The notes under the pieces are model-generated. The model was not told where the DNA came from. It made no database searches and worked only from the letters and a program-made list of their open reading frames with translations. Positions 59,136 through 64,000 of a DNA stretch of 64,000 nucleotides are shown here, in pieces (the first letter of the stretch is position 1; every line of letters starts with the position of its first letter). The DNA is from Phlyctochytrium arcticum (Eukaryota; Chytridiomycota; Chytridiomycetes; Chytridiales; Chytridiaceae), in assembly GCA_025602905.1 (NCBI GenBank), contig JAHLKI010000002.1, positions 868,001 through 932,000 on the forward strand. The letters run 5' to 3'. A program made the translations under genes and the position numbers.

Positions 59136-61976
59136 ATGTATTCTCTCAAGCTGTATCGTGGCTACATTGGCCTGTTCGGTCCCGGTGTCGATGACATTGC
59201 ATCACACGCCAAGGATGATATTCCTGTCCCGCGTCAAACCAGTCCGTTCCATATCACCCTATACACCAAAGAAGAGTCGCATTCGGCAAATCCAGATTCA
59301 GTTTTGATGGAGAATATGGATATCAGGCCACCTATCGACTTGGGTCTGGGAAAGCGGGGAGAGGTTTACTTTAGCGTGCTCTGGTGGCCTCAAGGACACC
59401 AAATCCGGGCAGCTGCCCGACTTCCTGCCAAGGATTTCCACATTACTCTTAGTGCCTCGGATCGACATGATGTGGACAAATCCATCGCGAGCCTTGTGAA
59501 AAGCCGGAAACTGACGCGTGATGAAGCTGGTCAGATTGTCAAAGATCTTCAGGCTACGACCAGTCCAGAGGAACATAGCGTCAAAATGGCAGAACACTTG
59601 GTAGGACAGCTACTGTCTCAGGAACATGATCTTGCTCTGTCTGATCAGCAGTTCAACTTCCTATGGAACATTCTCGAGCGAGCTGGAAAACGGGATACAT
59701 CCAAGACTTTAATTGAGCATCAGCTCGGGAATGACTCTGTCGCCGCGCTCGTACGACTGGCTGACACATATTACAAGGAAGCAAGATGGAAAACGGCCAT
59801 GTTGGTTTACGCAAAAGCTGCGCTAAAGGTTGGCTGCGGTGCTAAGAAGAATGATGACGTGCAAGAGCTGGAACTGAGGCAGGAAAAGGAACGTCGCGTC
59901 TACTCTTACTGTGTCGATGGGATCCGGAAATGTGCCAGCAAGACTGAATTTGGCCTCGTTTTCACCCCAGCAGAATTACAGGAGTATGAACCTGATAAGC
60001 AAGGAATGCTTGCCGGCGCTCTTCAACTCGATGACGACGTATTTAGGAACACCTCTCTTGCCAGGAATGTACGAGACAGTTTCACGGCTGCCGTAGCAGC
60101 ACACCCTGACTTGACCAAGTTTGATTTCTTGTGCCGGGAAAAGCGAGAGCAATTGGTTGTCCCAAGATCACCAAACAGCGAATATTATCGCCTGCCTCGC
60201 TTCTTTCGATGGGTGGTCCCGTTCTTTTTCGCGGTGATGAGTACACCGAGACACAGAGAAGACATTGATGCTCTTCGTTCTTCTCTCGGTATCAACCTGG
60301 TGGTAACTCTGACTCGAGAAACACCGTTACCAGCCGAATGGTTTAAAGGGACGCCCAGCAGGAATGTGTTTCTCCCTGTGGACAACTACCGAGTCCCTAC
60401 AATTGAGCAAGTCGGCCTCTTTATGGATCTGGTCACGGGCTTACCAGACGGTGAATCCGCACTGGTGCACTGTGGGGGAGGGGTCGGACGGGCTGGTATT
60501 TTTGTTGCTTGCTACTTGTGCGCATGTGGGTTTACCCGGCAGAGACAAGAAACCCCAGTCTTATCCGCTGCGGATGCTATCCGGATACTGCGCTCCATGC
60601 GACCAACCAGTATAGAAAACAAGGAGCAGGAAGATTTCGTCGGGCGGTACGTTCAGCACCTGTACAAGACAGTCTCGCAACCGCCAAAAACACTCATTCC
60701 GGAACCCACCGGAGAGCTTGCGATAACCGGACAGTGGATTCGGAAACCATCGTTGATTGTCTGTTGCGGCTTACCGGGAAGTGGCAAATCGACCTTTGCT
60801 GCCACATTAGGCGACCATTTTGGTTTTGACGTCGTCTGTCAAGATGAGCTAGGAAGCCGAGATGCATGCGAAGCAGCCATTTCCACCGCGGCAAAGTCGG
60901 GCAAATCTGTCATTGTCGATCGGTGCAATCCGACGCCAGAACAACGACATTTGTGGGTGTCACTGTCTTTTGCTCCTACAGATGCTTTATGTGTATGGTT
61001 TGATTATCCCGTGGACCTTTGCATGCAACGCGCCAATTCCCGCACGGCCCATCCCACTATCACTCAAGGTCGAGCTGGCCCCGCCATCACATCATTTGAG
61101 AAGCAGTTTGTTCCGCCAACGCTGAAAGAGGGATTTTCTTGTATCGCCCGAGTTCCGTCTTTATCTGCCGCGGACGCATTACAAAAACGGTTCGGTATAA
61201 TCCTCCAGAATTCACCTACGAATCTCGCTGCTGTAACAAAGACCCCAAGAAATGTGACGGCTCCTATTTCCAAAATCGGTTTATACAAGTTCCCCCGAAC
61301 CCGCCATTTGATCCCCTCACTGGGGGCATCCCGCGACGACTTGATACTTTCACCCGACGATGCAGCATCCTTCCTCGACACTTCCGACGGCTCAACTCTG
61401 ATTTTGGAGGAAAAGGTCGACGGAAGCAATATGGGAATTTCTATCGACGATGAAACGCTCCAGTTTCGAGTACAAAACCGGTCCCATTACGTGAATGTGA
61501 AATCTCATCAGCAGTTTCGACTCTTAGATAATTGGCTGTCCGATCACAGTTCCGAATTGTTTGAGTTGCTCAGACCGCCCGATTTAGAGTCAACCACCAG
61601 CAATCCCCACACTGCCAAAAAGTGCAAATACATCTTGTACGGCGAATGGCTCTACGCTCGGCACTCTATCCGCTACGAAAGCTTGCCCGATCTCTTTCTC
61701 GTTTTCGATTTATTTGAAGCGCATTCTGGCGTGTTTCTCAGTCGGGCAGAAATTGCGCAGCGATTGGCAACCGCCGCTCCCTCACTCCACCAAGTCCCCC
61801 AACTGAATCCTCCTCCTTCTGTGGGTCGTTTGAATGCGACGCATATACAAGATATGGTACTCACTACCCGATCAACCTTTTATGACGGGATCGTCGAGGG
61901 TATATCTGCGCAGAGAAAAGAATGGGCGTGTGCTGGACAGGGCAAAAGTGGTTCGGCCCGACTTTATCTGTGGTAA
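59136..61976 (+). CDS. Multidomain RNA-repair protein: 2H phosphoesterase-like, dual-specificity phosphatase, P-loop kinase, RNA ligase
   Basis: A single exon of 946 residues. Residues 1-115 hold two H-I-T-L motifs (PFHITLYTKEE at 37-47, DFHITLSASD at 100-109), the paired H-x-T of the 2H/LigT cyclic phosphodiesterases. Residues 145-340 are mostly helical, with a TPR-like hairpin near 203-233. Residues 350-510 are a dual-specificity phosphatase with likely acid Asp416 (PVDNYRVP) and signature HCGGGVGRAG, Cys446 and Arg452. Residues 535-690 are a polynucleotide-kinase-like P-loop domain (CGLPGSGKST; SVIVDRCNPT). Residues 715-946 are an Rnl2-type ATP-dependent RNA ligase: motif I EEKVDGSNMG with nucleophile Lys760, then YGEWLYARHSIRY, LFLVFDLF, YDGIVEGIS and GQGKSGSARLYLW. 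Every catalytic motif looks intact. It would heal cyclic-phosphate and 5'-OH ends and seal them. Yeast Trl1 has a different domain order. Confidence 0.88.
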   Translation: MYSLKLYRGYIGLFGPGVDDIASHAKDDIPVPRQTSPFHITLYTKEESHSANPDSVLMENMDIRPPIDLGLGKRGEVYFSVLWWPQGHQIRAAARLPAKDFHITLSASDRHDVDKSIASLVKSRKLTRDEAGQIVKDLQATTSPEEHSVKMAEHLVGQLLSQEHDLALSDQQFNFLWNILERAGKRDTSKTLIEHQLGNDSVAALVRLADTYYKEARWKTAMLVYAKAALKVGCGAKKNDDVQELELRQEKERRVYSYCVDGIRKCASKTEFGLVFTPAELQEYEPDKQGMLAGALQLDDDVFRNTSLARNVRDSFTAAVAAHPDLTKFDFLCREKREQLVVPRSPNSEYYRLPRFFRWVVPFFFAVMSTPRHREDIDALRSSLGINLVVTLTRETPLPAEWFKGTPSRNVFLPVDNYRVPTIEQVGLFMDLVTGLPDGESALVHCGGGVGRAGIFVACYLCACGFTRQRQETPVLSAADAIRILRSMRPTSIENKEQEDFVGRYVQHLYKTVSQPPKTLIPEPTGELAITGQWIRKPSLIVCCGLPGSGKSTFAATLGDHFGFDVVCQDELGSRDACEAAISTAAKSGKSVIVDRCNPTPEQRHLWVSLSFAPTDALCVWFDYPVDLCMQRANSRTAHPTITQGRAGPAITSFEKQFVPPTLKEGFSCIARVPSLSAADALQKRFGIILQNSPTNLAAVTKTPRNVTAPISKIGLYKFPRTRHLIPSLGASRDDLILSPDDAASFLDTSDGSTLILEEKVDGSNMGISIDDETLQFRVQNRSHYVNVKSHQQFRLLDNWLSDHSSELFELLRPPDLESTTSNPHTAKKCKYILYGEWLYARHSIRYESLPDLFLVFDLFEAHSGVFLSRAEIAQRLATAAPSLHQVPQLNPPPSVGRLNATHIQDMVLTTRSTFYDGIVEGISAQRKEWACAGQGKSGSARLYLW

Positions 61977-62701
61977 TGAGCACTGGAGTAAAGGAATTAT
62001 TGTGCAGAATAGAGTTTATAGTAGCTATACGGAAATGTAACCGATTTGTATTATTCCAGCAGGCTTCTCGCTGTTGGTCTTAATCAAAACGTATAATAGA
62101 ACATTACACGAATGAAAAAGCCCAGTATCAGAAATTCGATGTAAAATATATGGTGTTCGTGCCGTACGAAAACTCCCACGGACACCAGACAAGAAAGACT
62201 CATTTGCACTTCCTGCCGAGCTCCTAAAGATGTAGAAGGAAGGTTCTTGCCAGAATCAATACCTGTGAACTGAAGCAAACGATGTTGAGCTTCCAGTCAA
62301 AAACCTCAAAGTATACTCATGCCGGTAGATACATTTGGTATTGCGCATTTCAATGTAGAATAATCATGTATTGATGCGTTGAATAAAGGTCGTCGAACAG
62401 GGCCACCAAATAAGTGACCAACTGCGCATTGGCGAGTATAGTGTGATGACATTTGTAAATTGGTACGTTGGCAAAATTACAGTTGAAGATCGTTCTGGTA
62501 AACCACAAGCAGCACAATGTAGATCCTTGAGGCCCGCAAATTCAAATTCCCCGGTGCTTCGCGGTGCCATTACTATTTTTGTTTGCTCTTTGGACCCGCA
62601 AATAAAGCGTAATTTCCGGTCTGCCATATCTATAAAAGGCCATACCCACTTCGTTTCCCCCTCCCTTCTCACATGTTTTCTCATGTTTTCTGCCCCATCA
62701 T
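61977..62701. other. Intergenic downstream of the RNA-repair gene, with a TATA-like box
   Basis: No gene I can support. TATAAAAG at 62631-62638 is followed by a C/T-rich tract and, 71 bases later, an ATG. Confidence 0.45.
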
Positions 62702-62896
62702 ATGTACATGCCTCTGCCAAATGCGGTCCACGACTCGGACTGCGCGGATGTCATCAGACACTTGACGGCTAGAAAATACGGCAACAAATGCATAATCTTC
62801 CCGACCTGCAACCTGGACTCTAAAGCTTCATTTGAATGGACGCTGTGGAAACAGCCATGCGCACTTGTGATCTACATGTGGGCTCAAGATAATTAA
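62702..62896 (+). CDS. Doubtful 64-residue open frame behind a TATA box
   Basis: It begins MYMPLPNAVHDSDCADVIRH, continues KYGNKCIIFPTCNLDSKASF and ends before an in-frame stop. A TATA-like box and a pyrimidine tract sit just upstream, which is the main reason to list it. There is no signal peptide, no domain and no family. It may be a first exon, a small gene or chance. Confidence 0.25.
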   Translation: MYMPLPNAVHDSDCADVIRHLTARKYGNKCIIFPTCNLDSKASFEWTLWKQPCALVIYMWAQDN

Positions 62897-62907
62897 AAGT
62901 AGCGCTG

Positions 62908-63232
62908 CGCTGAATTTATAAACATTGCGATGACAGCAAGATGCTGGAGATGATGCCGAGTTTTGACGATGAGGTAGGCCCGGTATTAGCCTGACAAGCA
63001 TTGGGAATGCTTATTCATTGCTTGTCCCAAGATCCGAGACTGGAAGCGCGGCCTGCGCGAGTGAGGAAGGCTCCGCTGAAATCATAAACATTGTGATGAC
63101 AGCAAAATGTCGGAGATGATGCCGATTTTGACGATAAGGTAGGCCCGTTATCAGCCTGGCAAGCATTGGAAATGCTTATTCATTGATTGTCCCAAGATTC
63201 AAGACTGGAAGCGCGGCCTGCGCGAGTGAGGA
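62908..63232. repeat. Tandem duplication, about 165 bases x 2, with conserved hairpin
   Basis: Two copies (about 62908-63073 and 63074-63232) differ at scattered bases and small indels. Both end with GCGCGGCCTGCGCGAGTGAG. Each holds a short palindrome with 7-base arms AAGCATT/AATGCTT and a 3-base loop; the loop differs between copies, the arms do not. Confidence 0.85.
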
Positions 63233-64000
63233 AGGCTGATGAGACGCAAAAAGTATCGGAACGCGGCTAATCGTCGGCGTCGATGAAATGAGGACAAATC
63301 ACCTGCTGGCCATGATTTTCGAGGGTACTCCTCTTCGATCAATCATCGTGGGAGATTGTTGTAGCCGTGAAAGAGCAAGTGGTCCGTGATGAAGCGATCA
63401 TGAGTGACATTTGGTGAGTGACGGTTGTTGATTGACATTTGAGGATTGACAGTTGATGGCTGACGTTTCCTGGTGGCTACATCGGCAGATGAACGGTGAA
63501 AGTGGAAAGGATGGAGGAGGGGCGGTACGTCGAACGACGTGGTGGTTGCTCTCTGCGTACTCGCTGGATCTGGGACGCACTACCAGAAGAACAAGGTGTA
63601 AATTAGAAGAGGGCGCAAAACCCGCCAATTTTGCCGGAGCTTACCAGGATGGACGACAAAGAGATGTTCCTACTCGCAGTCCCTAGTCCCTAGTCGCAGG
63701 TCGAAACGCCGACAATATGACGGGTGTCTTAATTGGGTTGACGCGCGCAAAGGCAATTCCGAGGTCTGAGTTGGTGGTAGGCGGTTCGCAAATCAAGTGC
63801 TCCGTTTCCGAGCGTGGGTTTCCGTCAAGCCTGTAGGCTTCATAAGAGTAGTAGGACTTGGTTCTGATGGGTCAGTATTCTTGCGGTCCAGTGGAAGGAG
63901 CTACCAGTTTAGCGCGCACGAGAGATCAACGTTTGGTTTCCCCCCTTGGTTCATTTCATGTCATGTGACCTCAACTCCAGATGGATTTCCGCTACTGACG
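63233..64000. other. Window end, no gene recognised
   Basis: Apart from the 14-base repeat, this holds only short frames, such as 63453-63686, without protein character. Confidence 0.4.
63405..63473. repeat. Five-unit 14-base tandem repeat
   Basis: Successive units begin TGACATTTGG, TGACGGTTGT, TGACATTTGA, TGACAGTTGA and TGACGTTTCC, each 14 bases apart (the last incomplete). All keep TGAC at the same position. Confidence 0.75.

Follow-up and report, generated by a model that had tools for sequence, protein, structure and literature searches.

The DNA analysed here, hereafter the window, is a stretch of 64,000 nucleotides from the chytrid Phlyctochytrium arcticum (assembly GCA_025602905.1, contig JAHLKI010000002.1, forward-strand positions 868,001 to 932,000). 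Near its end lies a 946-codon open reading frame (ORF) whose product, P0001, belongs to a known protein family, two of whose domains (PF22547 and PF22784) Pfam has named "Swiss Army Knife" (SAK). Along the chain, a 2H phosphoesterase is followed by a TPR-like spacer, a dual-specificity (DSP)-type phosphatase, a PNK-like kinase and a PF09414 RNA ligase. The last conserved part of the ligase is encoded in a different frame.

59136 to 61976, plus strand: 946-codon ORF of the SAK protein P0001 (database record P0002, 925 amino acids)
59160 to 59468, plus strand: 2H phosphoesterase domain, residues 9-111, with His39-x-Thr and His102-x-Thr
59517 to 60101, plus strand: helical TPR-like spacer (tentative), residues 128-322, helices in the structure model
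60195 to 60641, plus strand: DSP-type phosphatase, residues 354-502, with Cys446 and Arg452, and Asn417 where the general acid is expected
60747 to 61193, plus strand: P-loop 5'-kinase domain, residues 538-686, with GLPGSGKS and DRCN
61398 to 61899, plus strand: in-frame part of the RNA ligase domain, motifs I (Lys760) to IV (Glu921), from alignment with relatives
61900 to 62040, plus strand: conserved ligase tail with motif V, in a frame that differs from that of the ORF, ending at a stop and matching the tails of relatives

Domain organization

An original prediction, made from the letters alone, described one uninterrupted frame encoding paired 2H motifs, a DSP signature, a P-loop kinase and a ligase, and profile searches recovered all four domains above the cut-off of 27. 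P0001 matches PF22547 and PF22784 (2H-SAK and PTP-SAK) at 55.9 and 174.3 bits, with curated cut-offs of 27 and 27, and the same chain matches AAA_33 at 44.1 bits and RNA_ligase at 84.3 bits, the PF09414 match spanning residues 755-896 at 1.5e-23. The predicted HITL pair corresponds to two His-x-Thr/Ser motifs of the 2H superfamily, and structure prediction gives this N-terminus a 2H fold. Predicted folds also support the phosphatase, with its HCx5R signature of DSP/PTP enzymes, and the kinase. The 50 matches listed for the full P0001 model against PDB structures are phosphatases and kinases, and a PDB search with the 2H profile gave no match at E ≤ 5. In profile comparisons the spacer resembles designed TPR chains and CTR9, with no single stretch significant alone. 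The kinase resembles PNKP (3u7g, and TIGR01663 at 3.4e-16, yet at 58.7 bits, below the cut-off of 502.8); a literature search for the 9drz and 9d8a kinases found no paper.

The nearest database protein, P0002, is a hypothetical protein of P. arcticum that is 98% identical to P0001. Its record omits residues 284-304 (21 residues), which correspond to an in-frame 63-base GT-AG stretch at window positions 59984-60046. The frame is open across these residues, and because relatives vary in length at this place, which does not decide the matter, the intron of the P0002 model is doubtful.

The ligase frame breaks ahead of motif V

After the VEG of motif IV, which ends at 61899, the ORF runs into residues unlike those of relatives and then a stop. 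The sequence that fits the relatives' motif V and tail, reading VYLRREKNGRVLDRAKVVRPDFICGNEHWSKG and on, occupies another frame from 61900 to the stop at 62040. In an alignment of four SAK and seven bacterial ligases, three residues of motif V (R, K and V) never vary, nor do the downstream F, HW and N. Among the 57 database proteins (P0002 to P0058), 47 are at least 840 amino acids long and 46 of these have motif V, the sole exception being P0002, the record of the P0001 gene. At the break, the window differs in length by two bases from two paralogous stretches. A scan for introns (GT-AG, donors at 61780-61934, lengths of 31-250 bases) yielded 10 pairs that bring the tail into frame, none of which keeps both motifs IV and V.

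The PF09414 assignment and motifs I to IV of the original prediction stand. Its claim of a ligase with all nucleotidyltransferase motifs does not hold for the P0001 ORF, because motif V is out of frame and no candidate intron restores it together with motif IV. Since a ligase without an in-frame motif V would be expected to fail in sealing, the assembled P0001, judged from its sequence, should heal RNA ends but would probably not seal them. SAK relatives in fungi, rotifers and oomycetes have the same domains in the same order at full length, whereas the P0001 copy loses the ligase frame ahead of motif V.

Paralogous copies and constraint

A search of the genome (31,481,740 bases, 91 contigs) located a degenerate SAK copy ~ 133 kb away on the same contig (in C2:790500-795600), with 89% DNA identity to the window copy, 13 gaps and 4 in-register stop codons. 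Besides this copy, the search gave a 112-base piece (C2:839363-839474) and fragments on contig C42, and there was no second intact copy among the best candidates scored. A PF09414 match on contig C41 reads as DNA ligase IV with BRCT-like parts, not as SAK.

Differences between the window and the degenerate copy number 61, 52 and 125 at the three codon positions. The nonsynonymous and synonymous rates (dN 0.061, dS 0.199, NG86) give a ratio of about 0.31, and by part the ratio is 0.47 for the 2H domain, 0.36 for the middle, 0.30 for the phosphatase, 0.25 for the kinase and 0.22 for the ligase. At 33 conserved sites where the copies differ, the window fits the family at 21, the degenerate copy at 4 and neither at 8. 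This pattern suggests that constraint on the window copy, strongest in its ligase, lasted until recently. Weighing against constraint, the window copy deviates at 7 of 115 otherwise invariant alignment columns, of which 3 fall within the out-of-frame tail; each of the remaining 16 sequences in that alignment deviates at 0 to 10 of the 115.

The frame break may be a real mutation in a decaying copy, in which case the strain would be without a working SAK ligase, a reading compatible with the function proposed below for the family. The position of the break ahead of motif V, the two-base length difference, the degenerate state of the other genomic copies and the failure of all 10 candidate introns to retain motifs IV and V together argue for decay. 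However, the frame is otherwise free of stops for 922 codons, and both the low dN/dS and the better fit of the window copy to the family at the 33 sites speak against it, so that we give decay somewhat under an even chance. Alternatively, the break comes from faulty sequencing or assembly and the gene in the organism is whole, as would suit a ligase part under constraint, a tail intact within its own frame and the presence of motif V in all 46 other long database proteins. Although the database record P0002 carries the same tail, which counts against an error, we regard this explanation as having close to an even chance.

A dispersed repeat without long ORFs occupies window positions 62421-64000 and continues in L012, with copies 92-94% identical at C2:789684, C3:311782, C26:168312 and C10:140219-141895. 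At C2 the repeat and the degenerate SAK copy adjoin each other in the order seen in the window, so that gene and repeat were duplicated together. Within the repeat, at window positions 62904-63237, there are direct repeats of 112 bases (two copies) and 60 bases (two copies), spaced by ~ 165. Adjacent genes in the window, read by eye, appear ordinary: a putative Maf-like protein, a zinc finger and an acyl-CoA dehydrogenase.

Distribution and conservation of the SAK family

The architecture of P0001 is not new, which answers the question, raised by the original prediction, whether this domain order had been described before. Two protein searches (56 and 52 matches, with the best 7997 candidates scored in each) gave 57 distinct proteins including P0001's own record. 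The 56 relatives come from chytrids, Aureobasidium, Agaricomycetes, Tilletia, Ceraceosorus, bdelloid rotifers, Phytophthora and metagenomes. In a tree of 35 of the 58 sequences, which has several long branches so that some joins may be false, Aureobasidium groups with chytrids, and rotifers and Phytophthora group with basidiomycetes (100/99). Because this grouping conflicts with the species tree, we read the distribution as horizontal transfer.

Catalytic residues are nearly invariant across the relatives, with gaps that come from partial gene models. In DSP/PTP phosphatases the aligned Asp, as in 25xa and DUSP23, is the general acid; SAK proteins have Asn at this position (417 in P0001) in 56 of 56 relatives. 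Some database names are misleading: P0037, P0038, P0039, P0041 and P0054 are recorded as ATP dependent DNA ligase or as Dual specificity protein phosphatase 23. The family is known and named, and a search of the accessible literature found neither a paper describing it nor a report of tested activity.

Ligase class and bacterial relatives

A PDB search for the ligase gave 15 matches at E ≤ 1; T4 Rnl2 is not named among them, and the best are 3qwu, 8uce, 2vug and a Naegleria ligase. A single ligase sequence as query gave chance matches only. Rnl2 ligases carry a separate C-terminal domain after motif V, and in 16 aligned SAK relatives just 25-35 or so residues follow that motif.

Relatives of the ligase occur in bacteria, where PF09414 ligases are 36-42% identical to the ligase of the Gaertneriomyces SAK relative P0003, including motif V and the HW tail, but stand alone, unlike the four-domain SAK chain. 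We examined 82 prokaryotic and viral loci, namely the best 80 of 533 bacterial loci encoding a relative and 2 viral contigs. A SAK-like fusion was absent: a 2H or PTP part occurs in 0 of the 82 and a kinase in 1, and three matches in phage records are all ligase-only. Two arrangements of neighbouring genes are represented by the following loci.

L087, 3067 to 5675: PF09414 ligase beside HEC-03 genes, similar in many of L032-L111
L077, 4896 to 6922: Myxococcales ligase beside an HD plus AAA_33 protein

The neighbours at L087 match PADLOC HEC-03A (5.8e-29) and HEC-03B (2.8e-127). A HEC-03A-like small ORF is present in 70 of the 82 loci and a HEC-03B-like AAA ATPase ORF in 71 (counted by phmmer at E ≤ 1e-4). 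The clustered neighbours are on the same strand as the ligase and no more than 2,500 bases away. The small protein is presumably a PIN nuclease, as its VDTN motif suggests; Pfam matched nothing in the two copies searched. PADLOC has no model for the L087 ligase, and its models matched neither P0001 nor P0003. As the ligase adjoins HEC-03 genes yet has no PADLOC model, this candidate defence system may really comprise three genes, for an ATPase, a nuclease and an RNA ligase. A literature search for HEC-03, including the accessible part of PMC9252829, found no description.

When 97 ligases were placed in a quick tree (16 from SAK proteins, 68 that have both neighbours and 13 other; unrooted, without bootstrap, 42 of 94 forks open), the SAK ligases formed one group (98) next to L077 (92), their nearest bacterial ligase among the best 80 of the 533 bacterial loci. 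Gene pairs of HD-Pnk and ligase are known in bacteria, and the L077 arrangement is similar.

Other RNA-repair systems in the genome

Fungal Trl1, like SAK proteins, has a ligase, a 5'-kinase and a 2H phosphodiesterase in one chain. Its parts lie on contig C1 in the order PF09511, PF08303, PF08302, bearing out the earlier statement that P0001 differs from Trl1 in domain order: ligase-kinase-phosphodiesterase is the reverse of the SAK arrangement, which P0001 follows, and the Trl1 ligase belongs to PF09511, that of SAK to PF09414. Trl1 has no phosphatase and so needs Tpt1, which two neighbouring stretches of the genome match; RtcB is matched by two same-frame stretches. Given the presence of Trl1, Tpt1 and RtcB, the SAK protein is probably not needed for tRNA splicing and represents a spare repair route.

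Proposed function

We consider it likely that SAK proteins, with P0001 as a family member, are self-contained RNA end-healing and sealing enzymes, most probably for RNA cut by ribonucleases. Domains, conserved residues and folds fit such a role, which the original prediction had assigned to P0001; the repair-and-seal interpretation is weaker for the assembled copy, whose lack of an in-frame ligase motif V weighs against it. We infer all catalytic steps and the biological role. Where a metal-independent ribonuclease has left a 2',3'-cyclic phosphate, the 2H domain would open it, giving a 2'-phosphate if the domain is CNPase-like. The phosphatase would then take off the monophosphate, which would make Tpt1 unnecessary, and it plausibly does the 2'-phosphate removal otherwise done by KptA/Tpt1. 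The kinase would phosphorylate the 5'-OH, possibly from GTP, and the ligase, using ATP, would join the 3'-OH to the 5'-phosphate, with the TPR-like spacer perhaps holding the modules or a partner. A 2H enzyme that leaves a 2'-phosphate removable by KptA/Tpt1 has been described (PMC9503650).

SAK could be the cell's tRNA-splicing or HAC1-type ligase, as its healing and sealing domains have counterparts in Trl1, but Tpt1 and a three-part Trl1 (ligase, kinase, phosphodiesterase) are already encoded in the genome, and the patchy distribution of the family also makes this highly improbable. A PNKP-like role in DNA end repair, to which the kinase's resemblance to PNKP and the DNA ligase names of some relatives point, is unlikely as well: the ligase matches PF09414 and bacterial ligases of that family, and 2H domains act on 2',3'-cyclic phosphates, which occur only in RNA. 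Most likely, SAK proteins would mend RNA that stress ribonucleases or hostile ones have cut, alongside the Trl1-Tpt1 pathway that serves housekeeping. Three observations favour this possible link with stress or anti-element ribonucleases: the genome also has Trl1 and Tpt1, the family is patchily distributed, and bacterial relatives of the ligase adjoin candidate defence genes. RNA repair is common to this reading of SAK and the bacterial Pnkp1-Rnl-Hen1 complex, which repairs ribotoxin-damaged RNA; unlike one-chain SAK, the complex consists of three separate proteins in a heterohexamer (PMC4411300). In bdelloid rotifers, RNA ligase genes of foreign origin are induced by a fungal pathogen and by radiation, and the accessible parts of the two reports (PMC11258130, PMC10809525) do not show whether SAK genes are among them; the former cites the Burroughs and Aravind review on RNA repair in biological conflicts.

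More tentatively, SAK may be a horizontally spread, one-chain eukaryotic answer to ribonuclease attack. The ligase would derive from a bacterial RNA-conflict module, in which it adjoins an HD-kinase or HEC-03 genes, and the DSP-type phosphatase, where an invariant Asn replaces the acid, would strip 2'- or 3'-phosphates from RNA ends and so allow scar-free repair without Tpt1. We know of no such RNA-end job for the DSP-type phosphatase fold.

For annotation, the locus is a warning that a 946-codon open frame can conceal an incomplete ligase. For the family, the predictions are of four activities on one chain and of an RNA phosphatase of the PTP fold that lacks the customary acid. If they are true, some eukaryotes would gain an RNA repair route that is separate from tRNA splicing and whose ligase has relatives in bacterial conflict modules.
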